Below are positions 5,839 through 64,000 of a DNA stretch of 64,000 nucleotides, in pieces; within the stretch, counting starts at the first letter, position 1; each line of letters begins with the position of its first letter. The notes below the pieces were generated by a model, which did no database searches, was not told the origin of the DNA, and worked only from the letters and a program-made list of their open reading frames with translations. The DNA is from Alphaproteobacteria bacterium (lineage in GTDB: Bacteria > Pseudomonadota > Alphaproteobacteria > Micavibrionales > UBA2020), in the NCBI GenBank assembly GCA_021413445.1, contig JAIOQI010000064.1, positions 1-64,000 on the forward strand, read 5' to 3'. The position numbers were made by a program, and so were the translations under genes.

Positions 5839-7458
5839 GTGAGTCCGGTTGAAACAGGTTTGGCCTTTATCGAAGGGCTGGCGCTGATTTTTTCGCCTTG
5901 TATTCTGCCGGTCTTGCCGCTGGTTTTGTCCGCCTCGGCGGACGGCGGCCGGCAAAGGCCCTTCGGGATTATCATCGGTTTTGTGCTGTCGTTCAGCCTG
6001 TTCGCTTTTGCGGCGCGGAAAATCGTCGGCGCTTTCGGCATCGATCTCGACGTGCTTAAAAATGTTTCGCTGCTGCTGCTCTTTCTGTTCGGGCTGGTGC
6101 TGGTGTTTCCCCGGCTGTCGGACAAATTCAGCCAGTGGACTCAAGGTCTTGCGGCTTTCGGCGCCAGGGTTTCCGCATCGGGCAGGGACGGCCTGGTCAG
6201 CGGCATCATGATCGGTGCGCTGATCGGCTTGGTATGGACGCCCTGCTCCGGACCGATTCTGGCAACGGTGCTGGTGCAGGTGATTCGCCAGCAGAGCGAC
6301 TTTGCCGGCTACCTGATTATCCTTTCTTTCGCCATCGGCGCGGGCGTGCCGATGCTCATCATCGCTGTGGCGGGAAGGGAGATCATGACCTCGCTGGGAT
6401 TTTTCAGCCGGCATGCGGAGGCTTTGCGCCGGGGCTTCGGCGCCGTCATCATCGCCGCGGTCGTTTTTATTTTCTCCGGCGTTGATGTGCAGACGCTGCT
6501 GGCCGGAAGAAGCGGCACCAGCGAACCGCGCGGCGAGATTACGCAGCTGGAAAACGGGTTGAACAATCCTTATCCCGCGCCGGACTTCGTTGGCATCGAC
6601 TCTTGGCTCAATTCGCCGCCGCTGACGATGCAGGGTTTAAAAGGAAAAGTGGTGCTGGTCGATTTCTGGACGTACTCCTGCATCAACTGCGTGCGCACCC
6701 TGCCGTATCTCACCGGCTGGGATAAAAAATATCGCGATCAGGGGCTGGTCATAGTCGGCGTGCATGCGCCGGAGTTCGAGTTTGAGAAAAAAGCGGATAA
6801 CGTCAGCGCCGCAATCGCGCACCATGGCATCCGCTATCCGGTGGCGCTCGATAATTCCCTTTCGACATGGGCCAACTTCAACAACCGCTATTGGCCCGCG
6901 CATTATCTCATCGACCGCGCGGGAAAGGTCGTCTATACCCATTTCGGCGAAGGCGAATACGATGTCACGGAAAATAATATCCGCTACCTGCTCGGTCTGA
7001 AGGGCAAAGTCGAGACTGTTGAACGGGAACCGGCTGGTGCCGGCGTTCAAACGCCGGAAACCTATCTTGGCTACGCGCGGGCGGGCGCCGGCTTTCAGGG
7101 GCAGAACCAGCTGGTCCGCGACCAGCAAAGCGCTTACCGCTTTCCTGAATCCTTGCCGGACGATCACTGGGCCTTGAGCGGCGCATGGAATATCCAGTCT
7201 GAAAAAATCATCTCCGGTGAAAAAGATGCGGCGCTGCGGCTCCATTTCACGGCGCGGAAAGTGTTTCTCGTCCTCGGCACTGCCACGGGCAAGCCGATGC
7301 AGGTCACCATTTCATTGAACGGCTCGGTTGTCAGCACCCTGAGCATCGACCGCCATACGCTCTATGAGCTTCTTGACCAGAAAGCCGCTGCCAGCGGCCT
7401 GCTGGAAATAAAAGCCGGTGCGGCAGGGCTGGAGGCTTACGCGTTCACCTTCGGCTGA
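5839..7458 (+). CDS. dipZ: DipZ/CcdA-type thiol:disulfide transporter with periplasmic thioredoxin domain
   Basis: A 539-residue protein starting at GTG 5839 behind a strong AGGGAGGA site. Residues 1-230 form a CcdA/DsbD-like membrane domain with the paired cysteine motifs F-S-P-C (Cys21) and T-P-C-S-G-P (about residue 135), which carry electrons across the membrane. Residues ~245-390 form a TlpA/thioredoxin-like periplasmic domain with the redox motif C-I-N-C at 281-284. Residues ~400-539 are a beta-rich C-terminal domain of the type that follows thioredoxin in DipZ proteins. Role from the family: passing reductant from cytoplasmic thioredoxin to periplasmic substrates such as oxidised proteins or cytochrome c maturation partners. 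It is divergent from the adhesin gene, and its last 22 bases overlap the convergent ATPase gene. Confidence 0.88.
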   Translation: MSPVETGLAFIEGLALIFSPCILPVLPLVLSASADGGRQRPFGIIIGFVLSFSLFAFAARKIVGAFGIDLDVLKNVSLLLLFLFGLVLVFPRLSDKFSQWTQGLAAFGARVSASGRDGLVSGIMIGALIGLVWTPCSGPILATVLVQVIRQQSDFAGYLIILSFAIGAGVPMLIIAVAGREIMTSLGFFSRHAEALRRGFGAVIIAAVVFIFSGVDVQTLLAGRSGTSEPRGEITQLENGLNNPYPAPDFVGIDSWLNSPPLTMQGLKGKVVLVDFWTYSCINCVRTLPYLTGWDKKYRDQGLVIVGVHAPEFEFEKKADNVSAAIAHHGIRYPVALDNSLSTWANFNNRYWPAHYLIDRAGKVVYTHFGEGEYDVTENNIRYLLGLKGKVETVEREPAGAGVQTPETYLGYARAGAGFQGQNQLVRDQQSAYRFPESLPDDHWALSGAWNIQSEKIISGEKDAALRLHFTARKVFLVLGTATGKPMQVTISLNGSVVSTLSIDRHTLYELLDQKAAASGLLEIKAGAAGLEAYAFTFG

Positions 7459-9947
7459 CCGGCGATGGCCTTGCGCCAGAATATTTTGGCCAGCTCCAGC
7501 GCCGCCAGCAGGACCGCGCCGGCCCCGGCGGCGGCGGCCACATCATGGCCGTGCAGGGGCCCGAAATGGAACAGGCTTTGCGCCGGCGGCCATGACAGCA
7601 ACAGGCTGAAAACGGCGATCACCAGCGGAATCCCCTTCCACAGAAAGGGATTGGGCCGCCGGAACGCCGTCAGCAGGGAGGCGCTGAAAGAGCGGTTGGC
7701 CAGGATCAGCGCGAGATTGATCGTCATCAGCGCCGCAAAAACCAGCGAGCGGATCTCATCTTCGGGAAGCCCGCGCTTCTGCGCAAAAATCCACAAGCCC
7801 CCCGCCATGACAAACGCCAATACCCCCTGCGTCAGCCCGAGGCCAAGAATACCGGCGGAGAGAATGGGGGCTTTCGGGTCGCGCGGCGGGCGGGTCATGA
7901 CGTCTTTTTCCTCTTCCTCGGCTTCCAGCACGATCGAGCAGGTCGGGTCGATGACCATTTCCAGCAGGGCGATGAGCAGCGGGGTCAGGATCAGCGGAAA
8001 TCCGGAGAGTATCGTCAGGACGGCGAACCCGGCGATCGGGACGTGCACGGCGATGATATAGAGGAAGGCCTTTCTCAGGTTGTCGTAGATGCGCCGCCCG
8101 AGGCGGATCGTCCTCACCAGCGAGGTGAAATCGTCGTCGAGCAGGACGATCGAGGACGCCTCGCGGGCGACATCCGTGCCGCGGCTGCCCATGGCGATGC
8201 CGATGTGCGCGGCCTTCAGGGAGGGCGCGTCGTTCACGCCGTCGCCGGTCATCGCCACGATCTCGCCGTTGGCTTTCAGGGCGTTGACGATGCGCAGTTT
8301 CTGCTCGGGCATGATGCGGGCGAAAACAGAGGCCTGGTTGACGGCGGCGCGTAAGCTTTCATCGCTCATTTTTTCCAGCTCCGCGCCGGTGATGATGTTT
8401 CCCGCGGCCAGGCCGGCCTCTGCCGCGATGGCTTGGGCGGTGGCCGGATAATCGCCGGTAATCATGATGATCCTGATGCCGGCGCCCTGCGCCTCCCGGA
8501 CCGCTGCCGGCACCGTGCCGCGCAGGGGATCGGCAAATCCGGCCAGTCCCAAGAATTCAAATGAAAAACCTTCCGGCGTTTCCGGCAGCGCCCCGGCGGG
8601 GGCGGCAGCCTTCGCGATGCCCAGCACGCGCATCCCCTGCGCCGCCAGGGCATCCACGGTATGGCGCAGTTTTTCCATGCGGGCGGCGTCAAACCCGCAG
8701 ATCCGGCCGACGGCTTCCGGCGCGCCTTTGGCGGCGACTGAATAGCGGTCGTCCTGGTCGTAAACATTCGCCATGACCAGAAGTTCCGGCGTCAGGCCGT
8801 AATGATGCACGGGTTTCGCCGCCGGTATTTGCCGCAGGCCGCAGAGCGCCAGATCCATCGGGTCGTAGGAGTCTTTCTGGCTGGACAGGATGCCTGTGGT
8901 AACAAGTTCCGCCAGCGCCTCCGGAATCGGCAGGCGGGATTTTTCTTCCCACCGGACATCGCCCTGCAGGAGGCAGGCGACCGACATTTTGTTTTGGGTC
9001 AGCGTGCCGGTTTTGTCCGTGCACAGGACGGTGGCGGAGCCGAGCGTTTCGATGGCGGCGGCGCGGCGGGTCAGGACCCTGGCTTTCGAGATGCGCCAGA
9101 CGCCCATGACCATGAACACGGCAATGACCAGGGGGAATTCTTCCGGCAGCAGCGACATGGCGAGCGCGATGCCGCCCAGGAATGCCGAGAGCCAGTTGCC
9201 GTGCAGCAGGCCGTTGATGAGGACGGTGGCGACGCATAACGCAAGGGCGATGATGGCGAAGATGCGCACAAAATTGCGTGTTTGCCGGCGCAGGCGCGGC
9301 TGTTCGGTCTCGATCGAAGACAGCGCCTGCCCGATCCTGCCGATCTCGCTGCGGAGCCCGGTGGCGAGCACGATCGCCCGCCCGTTGCCGCGGACGATCA
9401 GGGTCCCGGCGTAGATATAGGGCAGGCCGTCGCCTCCCGGGCGCGGCACGGTGTCCGGAATATCCTGCGCCTGGTTTTTTCTCACCGCCACGGATTCCCC
9501 GGTCAGCAGGGATTCATCGGTCAGCAGGTTGCTGCCGGAAACGACCAGCGCGTCGGCGGGAACGCGGTCCCCTTCTTTCAGGATCAGCAGGTCGCCGCGC
9601 ACGACATCCCGTCCGGCGATGCGCACCGGCTGGCCGTCGCGGATGACCAGCGCGCGCGGGCTGGTCAGGTCGCGTAGGGCGTCGAGCACGCGCTCGCTGC
9701 GGATTTCCTGCACCACCGTGATCAGCACCGAGAAGGTCAGGAAAACCACCAGCACCACGGCTTCGCGCAGGTCGCCGAGCAGCAGGTAAACTAGCCCTGC
9801 GCCGAGCAGCAGGGCGAACATCGGCTCCGTCACGACCTCGCGGATGATCTTCCACGGCGTGCGCTTTCCTGCGACGGGCAGCTCGTTCGCCCCTTCGGCT
9901 GCCAGCCGCGCCGCCGCTTCCTGCTGTGACAGGCCGTGACTGTTCAT
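7437..9947 (-). CDS. P2-type cation-translocating P-type ATPase
   Basis: 836 residues, the usual length for calcium/magnesium-type P-ATPases without N-terminal metal-binding domains. Visible in order: N-terminal cation-ATPase domain, two membrane helices, actuator loop with T-G-E-S (149-152), helix 4 with P-E-E-F-P (about 268-272) where P2 pumps have the ion-binding PEGLP motif, the phosphorylation site D-K-T-G-T-L-T (Asp311), nucleotide-binding domain, M-I-T-G-D and G-D-G-V-N-D-A-P hinge motifs, and four C-terminal helices. It couples ATP hydrolysis to cation transport. The PEEFP variant occurs in PacL/CtpF-like bacterial pumps whose ions are poorly defined, so the substrate is left open. 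Its start overlaps the stop of the upstream ABC ATPase gene by 4 bases (ATGA), so it is the distal gene of the exporter operon. Confidence 0.9.
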   Translation of the reverse strand: MNSHGLSQQEAAARLAAEGANELPVAGKRTPWKIIREVVTEPMFALLLGAGLVYLLLGDLREAVVLVVFLTFSVLITVVQEIRSERVLDALRDLTSPRALVIRDGQPVRIAGRDVVRGDLLILKEGDRVPADALVVSGSNLLTDESLLTGESVAVRKNQAQDIPDTVPRPGGDGLPYIYAGTLIVRGNGRAIVLATGLRSEIGRIGQALSSIETEQPRLRRQTRNFVRIFAIIALALCVATVLINGLLHGNWLSAFLGGIALAMSLLPEEFPLVIAVFMVMGVWRISKARVLTRRAAAIETLGSATVLCTDKTGTLTQNKMSVACLLQGDVRWEEKSRLPIPEALAELVTTGILSSQKDSYDPMDLALCGLRQIPAAKPVHHYGLTPELLVMANVYDQDDRYSVAAKGAPEAVGRICGFDAARMEKLRHTVDALAAQGMRVLGIAKAAAPAGALPETPEGFSFEFLGLAGFADPLRGTVPAAVREAQGAGIRIIMITGDYPATAQAIAAEAGLAAGNIITGAELEKMSDESLRAAVNQASVFARIMPEQKLRIVNALKANGEIVAMTGDGVNDAPSLKAAHIGIAMGSRGTDVAREASSIVLLDDDFTSLVRTIRLGRRIYDNLRKAFLYIIAVHVPIAGFAVLTILSGFPLILTPLLIALLEMVIDPTCSIVLEAEEEEKDVMTRPPRDPKAPILSAGILGLGLTQGVLAFVMAGGLWIFAQKRGLPEDEIRSLVFAALMTINLALILANRSFSASLLTAFRRPNPFLWKGIPLVIAVFSLLLSWPPAQSLFHFGPLHGHDVAAAAGAGAVLLAALELAKIFWRKAIAGQPKVNA

Positions 9948-47090: not shown

Positions 47091-48845
47091 TCATGATCTA
47101 AGAACGACGCGGGCGTATCGCTTAATGTCAGTGGTCAACTTCGCCTTTAGTATCCGAGCCACATAACTCTGATTCTTAAAATAGTTCGCGTAGGACAATT
47201 CCTCCCCCTCACGCTTTGAGTAGCTTCGCGTTTCCTTTTTATAAGCCAAAAGAATTTGGTCGATGCATGCTTTCGTCAGCTTACGCCAATTGCTGTGATG
47301 CGCTGAATTATACTCCGTCCATTGTCCGCTAAGCTGTCCGGTTAAATCGGAGTCGCCCCATTTTGCGCCGACCTCCGTCAAAGCTCGAACTACAAGACTA
47401 AAGAGCGCGAAATACTCATAGGTTTTTAAACTTCGGATGTAAACTTTATCCGTCGCCAATCTGCTGCGGCTTTCCCACAACACGTTATCGAGAAAGTAAA
47501 GCTGGAAAGCCAGTTCAGCCGATGTTTCGCGAATTTTTTCGTAAATATCCCCTTCAAATAAATCCGCCACATTTTTTGCAACAGCTGGACCTAAGCGCTG
47601 TTTTGACCAGTAAAAACTTGCAATCAACTGCGTATGCCATTTAATGCTTGTTCCATATTGAATTCCGACACTACGCAGTTCACGACTGCGCTGCCTCCAT
47701 TCGCGGTCGCGCCGCTCATAGAAGTACCCTTTATTGCGGAAGAAGCGGAACAACTCTAATTGGAAGTCATCATTTGAAGCCAAATCCCAACTCTTGATTG
47801 GGTTCTGTTGATTACTGCGCACGGCAATCTTTCCGATGACTTCCTTGCGTTGCTGGATTTTCTGGTCTAGCGCATCGCCACGCGGGGGTTCAATCTCAAT
47901 AACTCGAACCATGACACGGGCGTTGGCCGAAGGATTTGGCACGTCACGGATACTGTGCAGTGTCTGTGACCCATTTACCACTCGTGGGTTATCCAAGGTC
48001 AGTATCTTTCCGCCTGGGTCGTAATGCTGCTTCTCGCAAAGCATTGTGATACCATTGTTACTAAACGCGAACTCCTTAGGGCTCGTCTCGAACGTATGAC
48101 GAATTCCTTGATTTACTTTTGAGCGCGAAACACTGATGGCGACACGCACATTACGATTAAAGAGCAGGTCAAAAGGGTCGCTCTCCATGTACCGGATGAA
48201 ATCTACCAGCCGCGCGAATACGATGGATGTTGCCACCTCCGTGTCGGACTTATCTGCTGGGAGGAGCGCGTGAATCGCATTGAGATGAATTGGGGGTGTG
48301 CGCGGCATCGCGCCATCTATGTCGTCTACAAGGCACTGTATTAGGTCTTCCATGTGGAACACCTTTAGCGCTGGGATGTTTTTTACCTGTTCAAAATGAG
48401 CATCATTGCAACGATGATTGGTGACGAACATCAATTCAGCCGCACCGCTATCGTAACGCTCAAACAGATGCTTGTACCGAGGTCTGAGTTCTGGCTTTAC
48501 GGCTTTTTCCAGGTAGGCGGCGCGGGCAGTGCGGTTTTCAAAAGCCTGCCAAAAATATTTGATTTCTTGATAGAAGGAGGGGGGCGCAATCTTGCTGAAC
48601 TCCTTCGTGAATTTCGTGTTGAGGACGTGATGCAGAACAGTCTTACCGTTGTCTGTAGTAAAGAATAAGTCAATCTTACCGTCTTTTGAACCATCGGACA
48701 CAAAGATGTCACGTGGACTCATAAAGAACAGTTCGGCAAACCATCGACCAAACGCTTGCGGTTCAGCATCAAGATGTTGTTTCTGAGTTTCCTTCACACG
48801 TTTGAGCATGAACTCAAAGAGGTCGCTCTTATGTTGTATTGACAT
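47091..48845 (-). CDS. AIPR-family (abortive infection phage resistance) protein
   Basis: 584 residues. The hallmark AIPR core is present: F-N-R-N-V-R-V-A (about 225), F-A-F-S-N-N-G-I-T-M-L-C, N-P-R-V-V-N-G-S-Q-T-L-H-S-I and V-R-S-N-Q-Q-N-P-I. The N-terminal 150 residues contain G-K-I-D-L-F-F-T ... H-H-V-L-N-T-K-F, similar to a PD-(D/E)XK nuclease active site. Family members were first described in lactococcal abortive infection plasmids. It is monocistronic and convergent with the GTPase gene (78 bases between stops). Confidence 0.82.
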   Translation of the reverse strand: MSIQHKSDLFEFMLKRVKETQKQHLDAEPQAFGRWFAELFFMSPRDIFVSDGSKDGKIDLFFTTDNGKTVLHHVLNTKFTKEFSKIAPPSFYQEIKYFWQAFENRTARAAYLEKAVKPELRPRYKHLFERYDSGAAELMFVTNHRCNDAHFEQVKNIPALKVFHMEDLIQCLVDDIDGAMPRTPPIHLNAIHALLPADKSDTEVATSIVFARLVDFIRYMESDPFDLLFNRNVRVAISVSRSKVNQGIRHTFETSPKEFAFSNNGITMLCEKQHYDPGGKILTLDNPRVVNGSQTLHSIRDVPNPSANARVMVRVIEIEPPRGDALDQKIQQRKEVIGKIAVRSNQQNPIKSWDLASNDDFQLELFRFFRNKGYFYERRDREWRQRSRELRSVGIQYGTSIKWHTQLIASFYWSKQRLGPAVAKNVADLFEGDIYEKIRETSAELAFQLYFLDNVLWESRSRLATDKVYIRSLKTYEYFALFSLVVRALTEVGAKWGDSDLTGQLSGQWTEYNSAHHSNWRKLTKACIDQILLAYKKETRSYSKREGEELSYANYFKNQSYVARILKAKLTTDIKRYARVVLRS

Positions 48846-57786: not shown

Positions 57787-59010
57787 TTATTCTTGCGCAA
57801 ATTTTCCACAGCCAACCTTATTCTCAGCCGCAATACGCTCAATATGATCCGCCCAGTCCTGCATCATCCGGGTACGTTCTTTCAGGTATTTTGCACGATT
57901 ATAGGCGGCAGCAACATCCGTTTTTTTACCATGCGCAAGCTGTACGTCAATCACATCAAAACCATAGTCCAGCTCCTCAAGGATGGTACTCATGGCCAAA
58001 GCCCTAAAACCGTGGCCTGTATGCACACCCCGGTAACCCATTCTGCCTAAAGCCACCAAAATAGCGTTATTAGAGAGATGGCCTAACGGATCACGCTGGC
58101 CGGGGAAGATGTAGGGCCTGTGACCGTTCATCTTCTTCAGTTCTGTGAAAGCAGCCAGAGCCTGACGGGATAGCGGGACAATGTGATCCCGACCCATTTT
58201 CATCCGCTCAGCAGGGAGGTACCACAAGGCTTTTTCGAAGTTTATTTCTTCCCAACGCGACTTGATTAGTTCATTTGTCCGCACAAAGGTCAACATGAGC
58301 AGTTCCATCGCAAGCTGGGTCTGCCGAAACAGTCGGCCTTCGTTTTGATACAACTTGGCGAGGAATGCAGGCAGCTCGGCACTTTCCATCGCGGCAAAAT
58401 GCCCCTTTTTTGGAGCGGCCAGGACATCTTTGGCTTCAACATCGGCGGGATTGTGCAAGATGCGCCCACATACCTTGGCATAGGCCAGCACGTTCCGCAT
58501 AAGGCCAAGGGCGCGGCGTGCCAGTTCATATGCTCCCCGCTTCTCGATGGTCTGGACGGCCAGGGCAATCCGGGGAGGCGTTAGATCCCTGACAGGGATG
58601 TAACCGATGGCCGGAAATACATCACGGCGTAGGCGGGTCATGACCGTATTGGCATTGCTGTCTCTCCAGCGTGGCAGGTTCTTTTTGTACCATTCCATGG
58701 CCACCGCCTCAAAAGTATCGGCAGCGTTTATGGCGGCCATGCGCTTGGCCTCCTGCTTTTCCAGGGAGGGGTCTTTGCCTTCCCTCAAAAGCTTCCGGGC
58801 TTCATAGGTCCTGTCCCGAGCCTCCGCGAGACTTACTTCGGGGTATGGCCCGAAAGAAACTGTCCTTTCCTTGTTATGGAAGTGGTATTTCATGCGCCAT
58901 AGCTTGTTGCCGTTGGGGTTGACCAACAAGTATAGGCCATAGGCATCGCCCTTTTTATAGGGCTTTTCTTTAGGCTTCAGGCTTTTGCAGGCAGCATCAT
59001 TTAATGGCAT
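57787..59010 (-). CDS. P4-type tyrosine integrase at tRNA-Glu
   Basis: The likely start is ATG 59010 (M-P-L-N-D-A-A-C-K-S), giving 407 residues; the frame stays open to 59088. N-terminal arm-binding domain of DUF4102 type (K-P-Y-K-K-G-D-A-Y-G-L-Y-L-L-V-N-P-N-G-N-K-L-W), core-binding helices (A-M-E-W-Y-K-K-N-L-P-R-W), catalytic domain with R-T-N-E-L (first Arg), H-G-F-R-A-L-A (His-x-x-Arg) and A-Y-N-R-A-K-Y (Tyr). Such integrases insert into tRNA 3' ends; the tRNA-Glu gene lies 160 bases upstream in the same direction. Confidence 0.92.
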   Translation of the reverse strand: MPLNDAACKSLKPKEKPYKKGDAYGLYLLVNPNGNKLWRMKYHFHNKERTVSFGPYPEVSLAEARDRTYEARKLLREGKDPSLEKQEAKRMAAINAADTFEAVAMEWYKKNLPRWRDSNANTVMTRLRRDVFPAIGYIPVRDLTPPRIALAVQTIEKRGAYELARRALGLMRNVLAYAKVCGRILHNPADVEAKDVLAAPKKGHFAAMESAELPAFLAKLYQNEGRLFRQTQLAMELLMLTFVRTNELIKSRWEEINFEKALWYLPAERMKMGRDHIVPLSRQALAAFTELKKMNGHRPYIFPGQRDPLGHLSNNAILVALGRMGYRGVHTGHGFRALAMSTILEELDYGFDVIDVQLAHGKKTDVAAAYNRAKYLKERTRMMQDWADHIERIAAENKVGCGKFAQE

Positions 59011-59172
59011 GGGGGTATCGTCCTTTCCTGGTTGAAAAAATGCCCCCGTAGATACCCCCAAATTGGTCGGATTGGGTCGGTTTTCCACGGATCAAGACGG
59101 ACTTCAGATGATCTGAAACCCGTTGTTTTACTAGCGTTTTTGATGAATGCCGGAATATACCGGAAGTATGAA

Positions 59173-59248
59173 TGGCGTCCCCTGGGGGATTCGAACCCCC
59201 GTTACATCCGTGAAAGGGACGTGTCCTAGGCCTCTAGACGAAGGGGAC
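59173..59248 (-). tRNA. tRNA-Glu (anticodon TTC)
   Basis: Cloverleaf on the minus strand: acceptor GTCCCCT/AGGGGAC, D-arm with GTCTAGAGGCCTAGGAC, anticodon stem CGTCC/GGATG around CTTTCAC (anticodon TTC), T-arm GGGGGTTCGAATCCCCC, discriminator G and encoded CCA. It bounds the integrated element, whose integrase gene lies just beyond its 3' end. Confidence 0.95.
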
Positions 59249-59382: not shown

Positions 59383-61008
59383 TCAGGGCTGAACTCCCAG
59401 CGTCTTTAAAAGCAGCAGCATCCATTCCGGTTTTGCCGCGCTGAAGGCGGCGATCAAAAGACCGGCGGCGAGGGAGGCCGGCAAGGCCCAGAGGCCCTGA
59501 GGGCCGGCGGTCGCCAGGTTGTTTTTTCCCGTCTGGATATTATCGGGCAGCAGTTTTCGGAAAGCCTGCGCGGCGATGAACTTGATCGTCACAACGGCCA
59601 CCGCCCATCCCAGCAGCCCGACCGCGATATCGAGCAGGACAATGTGCCGGCCGATGTTGTTTTGCAGCATCGCGTCCAGAATCCGGCTGCGCACGGGCGT
59701 GAGATAATATCCGGCGGCCGGCAGCGTGGCCAGGACGGTGCCGGCCAGCAGGCCCTTGTTGCGGGGCCCCGCGCCGATCGACTGCATCGCCATGTTCGCG
59801 TAGTGGATCGTGGCATTCGCGTACTTGGCCGACAATATGAGGGGATAATCCTTGACCAGTTTTTGATAGACGTTTTTTTTCGAGCGGAGGGTGAGGCCGC
59901 TGAGGGCTTCGCGGATCAGCCTGTATTTGCAGGCGGTGTCGATCAGGTTTTGCGAGGCCATCGGCCCCCTGGACAGGCTTTGCAGCGCCTTGATGCCGGG
60001 CTTGACCAGCGCATCCAGCACGGGATCGATCTTCAGGATGCGCCCGCGCAGGCCGGCCACGGTCGCCGGACAGGATTTCCCTTCGATCGAAAATTCGGCC
60101 TGGGCCACGGGCAGCAGGGCGGTGAAGGGGATGTAAATATGGTCTTCCCGGATCTCCGGCGGCTGCCGGAAAATTTCCGCGTGGCCTTCCGTGGCCAGCT
60201 GTTTGACGCCGAGCTTGCCGATGATCTCCCGGACGTCCGGCGGGATTTGCCGGAGATCCGCCTCGAACAGGAGCGAAGCCTTGTAAGTGACCTGATAGAG
60301 ATGGGTCAGGAAACCGCTCTGGCCGCATTCCGTGCAGCTTATTTTGCACTGTCCCTGGCAGGCGGTGCAGACCATCGTCTTGTAGCCCTGGCAGGAGAGG
60401 CACTGGATTTTTCCGGTGCCCTGGCACTGCGGGCAGGGGGCGGTGCTGCCGTCATGCTGGTGGACCTGCCCGTCGCCGAAACAGGTCTGGCATGGCATGA
60501 AGCCCTGCCCGTTGCAGGCCTTGCAGGGGATCTTGCCCGCGGCGTTGCACTGGCTGCAGGGGAGGAAGGCGTCGCCGTTGCACTTCAGGCACTTGTCGAT
60601 GCTGGAAAATTCTTTTTTCGCCGCGTGCAGGGAAAGCGTCAGCGGCTCCATGCCGAATCCCTGCCCCGGCATTTTTCCCGTGGCCTGAAGGATTTCCTGC
60701 TGGACATCGCGCCCGCCCAGCAGGGCCGCGATCTCGCCCGCGCTGCGCGCCAGCACCGCCGCATGGGAGTCCAGCACCTGTCCCTGCGGATGCCGGCCCT
60801 TGAGCTGGCTTTTGGCGATTTCCGGCTTCAGCCTGACCGTGAGGGCGCCGGGGATCTGGTGCACCAGCGTCTCGTGACGGGCGAGCAGCACCTGCTGCGC
60901 CTTCAGCCCGTTGCCATCGAGCCGGCTGCCGAGGGTGGCGGCCGCTTTCTGGCTGATGGCGAAATGGATTTCCGCCGGTGCCGCTGGAGGGGAGGAGGGT
61001 TCTGTCAT
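59383..61008 (-). CDS. membrane protein with DnaJ-like CXXCXGXG zinc modules
   Basis: I start at ATG 61008 (M-T-E-P-S-S-P-P), giving 541 residues; the frame is open to 61221 but that part crosses the tRNA-Gly gene. A ~140-residue N-terminal region is followed by a tandem array of Cys pairs (C-L-K-C-N-G, C-S-Q-C-N-A-A-G, C-K-A-C-N-G-Q-G, C-Q-T-C-F-G-D-G, C-P-Q-C-Q-G-T-G, C-L-S-C-Q-G, C-T-A-C-Q-G, C-T-E-C-G), the DnaJ central zinc-finger type, about residues 150-250. Three C-terminal hydrophobic segments (about 443-465, 475-500, 515-535) anchor it in the membrane. No J-domain is present. A chaperone-like or zinc-structured scaffold role is inferred. Confidence 0.75.
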   Translation of the reverse strand: MTEPSSPPAAPAEIHFAISQKAAATLGSRLDGNGLKAQQVLLARHETLVHQIPGALTVRLKPEIAKSQLKGRHPQGQVLDSHAAVLARSAGEIAALLGGRDVQQEILQATGKMPGQGFGMEPLTLSLHAAKKEFSSIDKCLKCNGDAFLPCSQCNAAGKIPCKACNGQGFMPCQTCFGDGQVHQHDGSTAPCPQCQGTGKIQCLSCQGYKTMVCTACQGQCKISCTECGQSGFLTHLYQVTYKASLLFEADLRQIPPDVREIIGKLGVKQLATEGHAEIFRQPPEIREDHIYIPFTALLPVAQAEFSIEGKSCPATVAGLRGRILKIDPVLDALVKPGIKALQSLSRGPMASQNLIDTACKYRLIREALSGLTLRSKKNVYQKLVKDYPLILSAKYANATIHYANMAMQSIGAGPRNKGLLAGTVLATLPAAGYYLTPVRSRILDAMLQNNIGRHIVLLDIAVGLLGWAVAVVTIKFIAAQAFRKLLPDNIQTGKNNLATAGPQGLWALPASLAAGLLIAAFSAAKPEWMLLLLKTLGVQP

Positions 61009-61206
61009 TTTCTTCTGCCGGTGAAGGGATGTTGTTTTTATTGTAGGCGACAAAATAAAACTATGCCAGACGTTGTCATTGGTGGCGGGGTCACGGCGGC
61101 GGGCGGGGGCGGGATTTCTCAAAAGCCCCGGAAAAACCGCCGAAAATTTGCCAGAATACGAATCTGTTGGATTCCCGGGCCAAATGCAGTATAAACTGAA
61201 GCGATT

Positions 61207-61280
61207 GCGGGTGTAGCTCAATGGTAGAGTGCTAGCCTTCCAAGCTAGCTATGCGGGTTCGATTCCCGTCACCCGCTCCA
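61207..61280 (+). tRNA. tRNA-Gly (anticodon TCC)
   Basis: Acceptor GCGGGTG/CACCCGC, D-arm GCTCAATGGTAGAGT, anticodon stem CTAGC/GCTAG around CTTCCAA (anticodon TCC), T-arm with GGTTCGATTCC, discriminator T and encoded CCA. A two-gene ATPase-nuclease cassette starts 28 bases after the 3' end. Confidence 0.95.
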
Positions 61281-61308
61281 ATTTTTTCTCCGCAGAGGAC
61301 ATCACACA

Positions 61309-62697
61309 GTGCTTAAATATCTATACTTAGAAAACTTCAAGGGAATTAGAAAGAAAAGATTTGATTTTAAACAAATCAATATTCTTTGGGGACCCAACAA
61401 CTCAGGCAAGTCGTCGGTTCTTAATGCCCTCAATTTGATTGCCCAGACTCTACTCTCAGATTCCCCCGGAGTTTCACTAGCGCTTAATGATAGATTTGAT
61501 GATTTAGGAACATACCAGGATTTGGTTTTTGGTCACAATCCTAGAACAAAAATGATTATTGAGTTCGGCATTACTGTCGGCTCTAACTTATTAACCTTTC
61601 ATTACGAGTTTAAGTATCGCTCACAAAGAAGAGAAATTGAGATTAATCATTTTACCCTAAAAAGAGGGGCAAAGGAACTATATGCATACAGCGTTAAAAA
61701 AGATTCATATAGCATAAAATATCATGGAAAAAGTTCAGAACGGTTTAAGTCAATACTGAACAAAAGGCTTTCCCCAGAATTTCGCGGACTCAAGATTTTT
61801 GATAGGAATCTTGAGCAAGCTATTCTTGCGTTTATACAAAGAAAAGATGCTCAAAAACAACTCGGCGCAGAAGACAAAAAGAAAGCAAACTCTTTACGTT
61901 TGTTGATGACAGTTGTGAATGATTTAAATACTGCAAATTACGCATTGGATAGAACATTTTCTGCTTTTGATTCCCTCGGGCCATTTCGGGAGCGCCCTAA
62001 GCGGACTTATCAGGCTTCAGGAACCAGCCCAGAAACTGTTGGCAAGATGGGTACAAGCGCAATTGATATCCTTGTGTCAGACCTTTCTCGCCGAGGAAAA
62101 GCTAGCAATCAATTTGTTGATCAGACCTCAGCGTGGTTTAGAAAGTCTGGAATGGCTCAGGAAATCAAAATTAAACCTCTGACATCGAGACATTATGAGG
62201 TTTGCCTGATAGATGCCATGAGCAGGGCACATAACCTCTGCGATGTAGGCTTTGGTTGCAGCCAAGTTTTGCCAGTGCTCGTGTCTTTATTTACATTTGC
62301 TGATCAAGCTAAAACTAAGCGTCCCCCTATTCTCATTATACAGGAGCCAGAAATCCACCTCCATCCAAATGCCCAAGCTGAGCTTGGTTCATTATTCGCA
62401 AGACTTTCTCCGTCTCAAGGCCAGCTATTCATTGAAACGCACAGCCCATATTTAATAATACGTATGCAAACTGAAATTGCTAAGGGCAAACTATCGGCGG
62501 ATGCTATAAAATTTTATTACGCCAAAAACAAGAGGTCTTCGTCAAATTTTTACGAGCTAACTGTTGGAAATGACGGAATGTTCGAACAGAAGTTACCCTT
62601 CGGCTTCTTTCCTCAACGGTATGAGGAAACTCTTAACTTGGCTCGTGCAGCGAGTAAGGTTCAGCAACGCAAAATGGATAAAGAGAAAAATGACTAA
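61309..62697 (+). CDS. SMC/OLD-like AAA ATPase of a two-gene defence-like cassette
   Basis: 462 residues starting at GTG 61309 (M-L-K-Y-L-Y-L-E-N-F-K-G-I). Walker A G-P-N-N-S-G-K-S-S (28-36), then a coiled/insertion region, a Q-V-L-P-V-L signature-like segment, Walker B I-L-I-I-Q-E-P-E-I-H-L-H-P (about 343-355) and the H-switch F-I-E-T-H-S-P-Y-L-I. This is the AAA15/AAA21-type ATPase found in OLD, PARIS and Septu systems and in DUF3696 proteins. Its stop overlaps the start of the nuclease-like gene (ATGACTAA), so both are made together. AT-rich compared with both flanking chromosomal genes, a sign of transfer. Confidence 0.8.
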   Translation: MLKYLYLENFKGIRKKRFDFKQINILWGPNNSGKSSVLNALNLIAQTLLSDSPGVSLALNDRFDDLGTYQDLVFGHNPRTKMIIEFGITVGSNLLTFHYEFKYRSQRREIEINHFTLKRGAKELYAYSVKKDSYSIKYHGKSSERFKSILNKRLSPEFRGLKIFDRNLEQAILAFIQRKDAQKQLGAEDKKKANSLRLLMTVVNDLNTANYALDRTFSAFDSLGPFRERPKRTYQASGTSPETVGKMGTSAIDILVSDLSRRGKASNQFVDQTSAWFRKSGMAQEIKIKPLTSRHYEVCLIDAMSRAHNLCDVGFGCSQVLPVLVSLFTFADQAKTKRPPILIIQEPEIHLHPNAQAELGSLFARLSPSQGQLFIETHSPYLIIRMQTEIAKGKLSADAIKFYYAKNKRSSSNFYELTVGNDGMFEQKLPFGFFPQRYEETLNLARAASKVQQRKMDKEKND

Positions 62698-63220
62698 TCC
62701 TAAAGGCGATGCAATCTTTGTTGTTGACGCAAATGCAATAGATGAGTTTTATCAAGAAAAAATACTCGACTCTTCCACAGCAATTTCTGACGCTATCGGG
62801 ATACTCCTCAGTAGGGGTTATATTGTAATAGATGATAAAGACTGGATTTTAACCGAATGGAATGGGCGCGCTTTACGCGGCGATGACACTCTAATGGCCT
62901 GGATTGATATGGGCATTCAGGAAAAATGGATTCGACTTCTCCCGTTTAAACAAAAACCCCATTTAAGAAAAAAACTGCAGCAGCTGGGTATGCCTAATGA
63001 TGATTTAAAATATGTGATTTTCGCTGATCATTTGAAGGGTAAGGCTATTATCACCGACGACATTGATTTTCACGAACCAAAAGAGAAAAATAACCGCAAA
63101 CCTGGAAAAATAGATAGTATAAAAGCATCAAAGAAGGGCTCTGTTTGCAAATATATAACTAAGAAATTATCCATTAATGTCTTAAATTGGCAGGAAGCTT
63201 CTGTAAAATTTAAAGCTTAG
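62690..63220 (+). CDS. PIN-like nuclease partner of the ATPase
   Basis: Start at ATG 62690 inside the ATPase stop, giving 176 residues; the longer frame from 62564 is antisense-free but overlaps the ATPase. PIN-type acidic residues: I-F-V-V-D-A-N-A (Asp13), L-R-G-D-D-T-L near 65, N-D-D-L-K-Y-V-I-F-A (104/105) and A-I-I-T-D-D-I-D-F (123/124), the D ... D-x4-hhA ... T-D-x-D-F pattern of PIN ribonucleases. The ATPase next door probably controls it, as ATPases do the nuclease in two-gene abortive systems. I know no named system with this combination. Confidence 0.68.
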   Translation: MTNPKGDAIFVVDANAIDEFYQEKILDSSTAISDAIGILLSRGYIVIDDKDWILTEWNGRALRGDDTLMAWIDMGIQEKWIRLLPFKQKPHLRKKLQQLGMPNDDLKYVIFADHLKGKAIITDDIDFHEPKEKNNRKPGKIDSIKASKKGSVCKYITKKLSINVLNWQEASVKFKA

Positions 63221-63240: not shown

Positions 63241-64000
63241 TCACCCCGTATTCCGCATCCCCGCCGAGATGCCGCTGATGGTGAGGGCGAGGGTGCGGCG
63301 GAGGGCGGCGGGCGGGCGGGGGAGGGCGCGGTATTCCCTGAGCAGGTGCGCCTGCAGGATATTCAGCACATCGACATAGGGCGAGCGGATGCGGATCGAG
63401 CGCGCGAGGACCGGCATCGTCTCGAGGATGCGCCGGCGCCGCATGACCTTGAGTAGGGTCTTTTTCGTCGCGGCGAGGCGCTTCAGGTAATCCCGCGTCA
63501 CCGGCTGCAGCGCGGGCTCCACCAGCAGGGCGGAATAATATCTGGTGACCTGCGCGTCGGCCTTCGCCACCACCATCTCGACCAGGTCGATGACCGACCG
63601 GAAGAACGGCCAGCGGCGGTACATCTCCTGCAGGGTCTTGAGGTTGCCGGCCCTGATCTCGGCGTCCAGCGCCTCGGCGATGCCGAGCCAGGCGGGCAGC
63701 AGGGTGCGTGACTGCGTCCAGCCGAAGACCCAGGGGATTGCGCGCAGGCTCTCCAGCCCGCCGTCCTTGCCGCGCCGTCCCGGGCGGCTGCCGATTTTCA
63801 GCAGGCCGAGCTCGGCGATCGGCGTCAGCTGCATGTAGTGCTTCATGAAGTCGGGCCGCTCATAGACCACCTCGCGGAAGACGGCGACCGAACGGCGGGC
63901 GAGGCGGTCCATCGTCTTTATCCACGCCGCCGGTTGTTTTTGCGGCCGGGAGAGCACGGCCTCGAGGAACCCCGAGAGGTAAAGCTCCATCGTGCGCTCC
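63241..64000 (-). CDS. ppc: phosphoenolpyruvate carboxylase, C-terminal part (cut by window edge)
   Basis: The minus frame ends at TGA 63241 and is open to the right edge, covering the last 253 residues. Typical C-terminal motifs of PEP carboxylase: T-P-I-A-E-L-G-L-L-K-I-G-S-R-P-G-R-R, E-S-L-R-A-I-P-W-V-F-G-W-T-Q-S-R, L-P-A-W-L-G, and the extreme C-terminus G-I-S-A-G-M-R-N-T-G. It carboxylates PEP to oxaloacetate, refilling the TCA cycle. The start is outside the window. Confidence 0.95.
   Translation of the reverse strand, partial: ERTMELYLSGFLEAVLSRPQKQPAAWIKTMDRLARRSVAVFREVVYERPDFMKHYMQLTPIAELGLLKIGSRPGRRGKDGGLESLRAIPWVFGWTQSRTLLPAWLGIAEALDAEIRAGNLKTLQEMYRRWPFFRSVIDLVEMVVAKADAQVTRYYSALLVEPALQPVTRDYLKRLAATKKTLLKVMRRRRILETMPVLARSIRIRSPYVDVLNILQAHLLREYRALPRPPAALRRTLALTISGISAGMRNTG

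Follow-up and report, generated by a model that had tools for sequence, protein, structure and literature searches.

In PARIS, the AriA hexamer holds the effector AriB, which is released upon binding of a phage protein and cuts tRNA (PMC12409363). The cassette analyzed here resembles PARIS in combining an AAA15-type ABC ATPase with a small separate effector enzyme; however, AriB is a TOPRIM protein and the effector of the cassette has a predicted PIN fold. Septu relies on the HNH nuclease PtuB, and Gabija consists of GajA with a C-terminal TOPRIM domain and the UvrD-like GajB, whereas the ATPase examined here has 462 residues without a TOPRIM match and is accompanied by a PIN-type partner. The preliminary description of the locus was right in stating that the nucleases of Septu, PARIS and Gabija are of other kinds. 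It had named a TOPRIM or HNH fold of the small protein as a ground for rejection; structure prediction gave a PIN fold instead.

Combinations of an ATPase with a PIN protein occur elsewhere. A comparative genomics survey (NAR 2026, PMC12839542) describes OLD-type ABC ATPases paired with PIN endoribonucleases near BREX, the same type of pairing as in the cassette, and proposes these pairs as back-up suicidal effectors of BREX loci. HECs were obtained by a guilt-by-embedding approach, and several of them, including HEC-06, showed antiviral activity (PMC12988326); a test of HEC-03 activity was not found in the literature. In the PADLOC candidate PDC-M07, as present in locus L090, an ATPase likewise precedes a small protein whose N-terminus is PIN-like, although this ATPase belongs to a different group. 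HEC-03, Hma-embedded candidate 03 of PADLOC-DB and a little-studied candidate defence system, consists of a DUF3696-like ATPase (HEC-03B) followed by a PIN-type small protein (HEC-03A), in the same order and of the same size as in the cassette. VapC toxins share the PIN fold and the acidic tetrad with the small protein (Z 9-11), but the VapBC partner is a small DNA-binding antitoxin and the sole adjacent partner here is the 462-residue ATPase.

A two-gene cassette at tRNA-Gly(TCC)

The window, i.e., the whole stretch of 64,000 nucleotides that was analyzed, contains the two-gene cassette between tRNA-Gly and ppc, with the following features:

61207..61280, plus strand: tRNA-Gly(TCC), identified by ARAGORN and Rfam; insertion site
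61309..62697, plus strand: ABC/OLD-type ATPase (AAA_15, DUF3696-like), 462 aa, GTG start
62690..62697, plus strand: gene overlap of 8 bases, ATGACTAA, in which the ATPase gene stops and the nuclease gene starts
62690..63220, plus strand: PIN-fold protein, 176 aa, putative ribonuclease, ATG start

Overlap and position were thus as previously described. The sequence AGAGGA is located a few bases 5' of the GTG start, and the 8-base overlap likely results in translational coupling of the ATPase and nuclease genes. The longest open frame comprises 471 codons as compared to a maximum of 169 in 300 shuffles of the same DNA. The next gene after the pair is the C-terminal end of ppc (PEP carboxylase), encoded on the minus strand with its stop end at 63241. 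The G+C content of the pair is 0.393 as compared to 0.608 and 0.673 in the flanks, in agreement with the earlier statement that its composition differs from both sides. The cassette is foreign-looking in composition and has a mobile context.

The tRNA gene beside the cassette is one at which mobile elements often land. A close copy of tRNA-Gly(TCC), 93-99% identical, was found in 13 family-level relatives, and a phage-type integrase gene follows just after it in 6 of these 13, starting about 170 bases past the tRNA. tRNA-Gly(TCC) is an integrase hotspot. By tblastn, these integrases are 44-48% identical to the integrase located at tRNA-Glu in the window. The cassette carries no integrase of its own, an attachment site, which would show as the 3' end of the tRNA repeated in direct orientation, was not detected beside it, and no empty site could be demonstrated in the relatives, where neither flank is syntenic.

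Several further observations concern the neighborhood. A phage-type integrase gene (57787-59088, minus strand) abuts tRNA-Glu (59173-59248, minus strand), which constitutes a further insertion site at a distance of 2 kb from tRNA-Gly; the integrase probably belongs to an integrative element that reaches leftwards and holds AAA_25, Toprim, and recombinase genes. An AIPR/AbiU-type abortive-infection protein is encoded at 47091-48845 on the minus strand (Pfam 5.2e-33; PADLOC AbiU 2.9e-32), in the region that leads up to the integrase at tRNA-Glu and some 14 kb away from the cassette. The gene at 59383-61017 (minus strand) codes for a long protein in which CxxCxGxG-like zinc motifs recur and which is kept in 15 of 17 family genomes, but not beside tRNA-Gly there. 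The C-terminal part of ppc (63241-64000, minus strand) had no match in 7 same-genus genomes and was matched at 72-78% in two other genera of the family; hence, ppc looks patchy in this genus.

Predicted folds of the ATPase and its small partner

The larger protein matched Pfam AAA_15/AAA_21, with an E-value of 5.5e-27 for AAA_15, as expected from its earlier designation as OLD/AAA15-like. It contains a Walker A motif (GPNNSGKS, 28-35), a signature (GFGCSQVLP, 314-322), Walker B (LIIQEPEIHLHP, 342-353), and an H-loop (IETHS, 375-379), all of which are kept across the close clade. Since Walker B reads IIQEPE instead of the usual D/E-E, ATP hydrolysis may be weak. Comparison with PADLOC models gave near-equal scores for NsnB (7.3e-57), PDC-M55A (1.1e-56), and HEC-03B (3.8e-49, over the full length; PDLC04148), with NsnB and PDC-M55A scoring higher than HEC-03B; the AriA model of PARIS followed behind these three at 9.9e-27. 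An AlphaFold2 model (pLDDT 85) matched the heads of Rad50, SMC, PtuA from Septu and retrons, and GajA with Z-scores of 17-20. Neither Pfam search nor the structure model revealed a TOPRIM domain, and the ATPase has no nuclease domain of its own.

The match to Rad50/SMC heads and to PtuA of Septu and retrons would suit a DNA-targeting complex like Septu or Gabija, with the ATPase loading onto phage DNA that would be nicked by the PIN subunit. The PIN fold is also found in DNA-acting enzymes, and FEN-like nucleases possess it.

At E < 0.01, the small protein matched none of the Pfam, PADLOC, NCBIfam, and PHROGs models. A profile search against PDB sequences returned one VapC at E 1.3, its other matches (designed TIM barrels, HisF) being artefacts of composition, and nothing significant was obtained when a viral structure library was searched with the model. 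The AlphaFold2 model, built from 19 sequences, shows PIN topology (pLDDT 83.6, pTM 0.79), and the PDB structures closest to it are those of VapC toxins and related PIN proteins (Foldseek E 1.5e-4), which VIA-align superimposed with Z 9-11 over about 120-134 residues at 2.7-3.8 A. As judged from this model, the small protein is a PIN-fold protein, as previously assumed, and a putative ribonuclease; a PIN fold alone is no proof of activity. The best matches are thus VapC-type ribonucleases and not FEN, which argues against DNA as the target.

An acidic set such as D13/E56/D105/D124 is a hallmark of PIN nucleases. An alignment of 19 sequences, whose identity to the window protein ranges from about 13 to 42% and which include the ordinary PIN protein L012 as an outlier, shows D13, E56, D105, and K107 at every instance and N15 and D124 with few exceptions. 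D13, N15, E56, D105, and K107 are present in 18 of 18 aligned small proteins, D126 is kept within the close clade, and Pfam PIN_3 was matched by 4 of the 19 set members (best 6.5e-12).

A fold nearest to VapC toxins and related PIN proteins would also be expected of an addiction module, with the PIN protein as VapC-like toxin and the ATPase as its neutralizer, selected for stabilization of the element rather than for phage defence; the overlap of the genes, the mobile context, and the occurrence of relatives on plasmids fit as well. An ATPase antitoxin would, however, be an unusual design for PIN toxins, HEC-03 relatives inside BREX/Hma-like loci point to immunity, and addiction and immunity roles overlap. 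We regard a pure addiction function as unlikely. The cassette is probably an antiviral (or addiction) module.

Distribution and co-evolution of the pair

The small protein alone as query gave no relative in plasmids, phages, 93 relatives, genome contigs, or viral contigs; hence, the ATPase had to lead the searches, and relatives of the pair were reached in this way. The same pair was found in an alphaproteobacterial MAG (L002), in Limibaculum (L003), and on an IMG/VR contig (L026), with ATPases 50%, 40%, and 39% identical to that of the window, respectively. The small proteins are 43% (L002) and 30% (L003) identical to the window protein in pairwise comparison and 32% (L026) in the alignment. 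The gene order is common to all of them, with a spacing of -8 to +3 bases, and the three additional cassettes are likewise lower in G+C than their own flanks. The viral contig is phage-like and carries phage-type repressor, methyltransferase, and primase-like genes. The searches thus yielded four members of the window clade, two from other alphaproteobacterial genomes, one from a viral contig, and that of the window itself. The ATPase-PIN cassette is real and conserved, so that a lack of conservation, the other ground for rejection named in the preliminary description, does not apply.

The ATPase tree and the PIN tree, each of 20 proteins, correlate with a Mantel r of 0.93, a value reached in 0 of 2000 permutations. 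In both trees, the four members form a clade of their own (support 1.0) apart from the sampled HEC-03 sequences. The ATPase and PIN genes co-evolve. The weak profile match L012 was rejected as a clade member, being an ordinary PIN protein; L013, also a weak profile match, was not counted as a member.

More distant ATPases, on plasmids and in same-phylum genomes, are followed by HEC-03A proteins. A PIN partner is not universal among related ATPases: that of Pseudoalteromonas (L009) has a different partner of 296 aa, and that of Leclercia (L010) is accompanied by a PDC-M55B protein and no PIN protein.

PIN proteins serve in RNA processing, too, and the two genes could in principle be host housekeeping genes for RNA processing without a role in conflict. 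The pair is missing, however, in 93 relatives and in the remaining 384 genomes sampled from the class; together with the foreign composition, the patchy spread, and the viral and plasmid relatives, this makes a housekeeping function highly improbable.

HEC-03, its RNA ligase and a proposed mechanism

In the window clade, the ATPase gene is directly followed by a PIN-fold gene, as in HEC-03, and the profile of the clade aligned with HEC-03A (hhalign 94.5%, E 7.5e-8). The HEC-03A model (PDLC04147) matched the plasmid and phylum homologues at 1e-8 to 1e-74, but gave no match to the small proteins of the window (P0002), L002, L003, and L026. Furthermore, the window clade differs from HEC-03 in that D126 is followed by a K/R-rich insertion about 24 residues long.

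In 10 of 14 HEC-03 loci examined, the PIN gene ends at or close to an RNA-ligase gene. The loci with this ligase (Pfam PF09414) are L079, L080, L082, L083, L086, and L088-L092; such a gene was also observed in L005 (4928-5629) and in L006 (4910-5509). Plasmids of Aeromonas and Rhodococcus likewise carry an RNA ligase by the PIN gene (Pfam RNA_ligase 2.9e-34 and 1.3e-32), and in Acinetobacter soli plasmids (L007, 4816-5574) an HNH endonuclease gene replaces the RNA ligase after the pair. No PADLOC model matched the HEC-03-associated ligase, and the main text of the 2026 BREX survey makes no mention of an RNA ligase (PMC12839542). In our view, its co-occurrence with most HEC-03 loci is the most interesting by-product of this analysis. 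By the pairs of the window clade, an RNA ligase was not found, the flanks of L003 and L026 being short, nor was one found anywhere in the 87%-complete genome of the window. The window clade is a separate clade beside the sampled HEC-03 sequences and has no RNA-ligase gene.

Since most HEC-03 loci carry an RNA ligase by the PIN gene, RNA is suggested as the target. This argues against the DNA-nicking complex considered above, which together with the VapC-type matches appears quite improbable to us.

HEC-03 cassettes are flanked by Ppl- and BrxHI-type genes in L091 and by methylase and helicase genes of the Hma/BREX-like kind in L080, and in L090 the cassette adjoins PglX and a PDC-M07 pair. In L090, this PDC-M07 pair of ATPase and PIN-like genes (6072-7846) lies two genes from the HEC-03 cassette, beside the PglX gene. 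Because these cassettes sit inside BREX- or Hma-like loci, an antiviral role of the sister HEC-03 group is suggested, and by relationship this may extend to the window clade; none of the four members of the clade was seen inside a BREX or restriction locus.

On balance, we favor the reading that the two genes, for an ABC ATPase and a PIN nuclease, make up a mobile immune module that belongs to a sister clade of HEC-03 and acts by a PARIS-like mechanism. VapC toxins cut tRNA or rRNA. In the mechanism that we infer, the ATPase would oligomerize with ATP bound, bind the PIN protein and keep it restrained, and sense a product of infection; this trigger would free or activate the nuclease. The PIN protein would then cut host RNA, possibly tRNA or rRNA as VapC toxins do, and translation would stop before the phage multiplies, an abortive outcome. 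Such a module would follow the logic of PARIS, with AriA as sensor and AriB as tRNase, and have a PIN effector in place of TOPRIM.

The cassette had been proposed as a possible new variant. This held in so far as it belongs to a divergent clade missed by the HEC-03A model and devoid of the RNA ligase; the ATPase-PIN pairing itself is known from HEC-03 and, according to the BREX survey, from OLD-ABC/PIN pairs (PMC12839542). The cassette is probably a defence system and not categorically new. New here is a small, divergent, ligase-free clade beside HEC-03 that is missed by the small-subunit model of PADLOC; an earlier description of the clade or of the ligase is possible.

For PADLOC, the finding reveals a blind spot, as its small-subunit model misses the whole window clade. 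It further supports the view that nucleases of different types, namely TOPRIM, HNH, and PIN, are joined to one ATPase chassis. That the wider family is linked with an RNA ligase suggests immunity by cutting and resealing of RNA. Tentatively, and with considerable doubt, the ATPase-PIN family may comprise RNA-cutting immune modules, most of them with their own RNA ligase that could reverse the damage, and the window clade may represent a ligase-free, irreversible branch.
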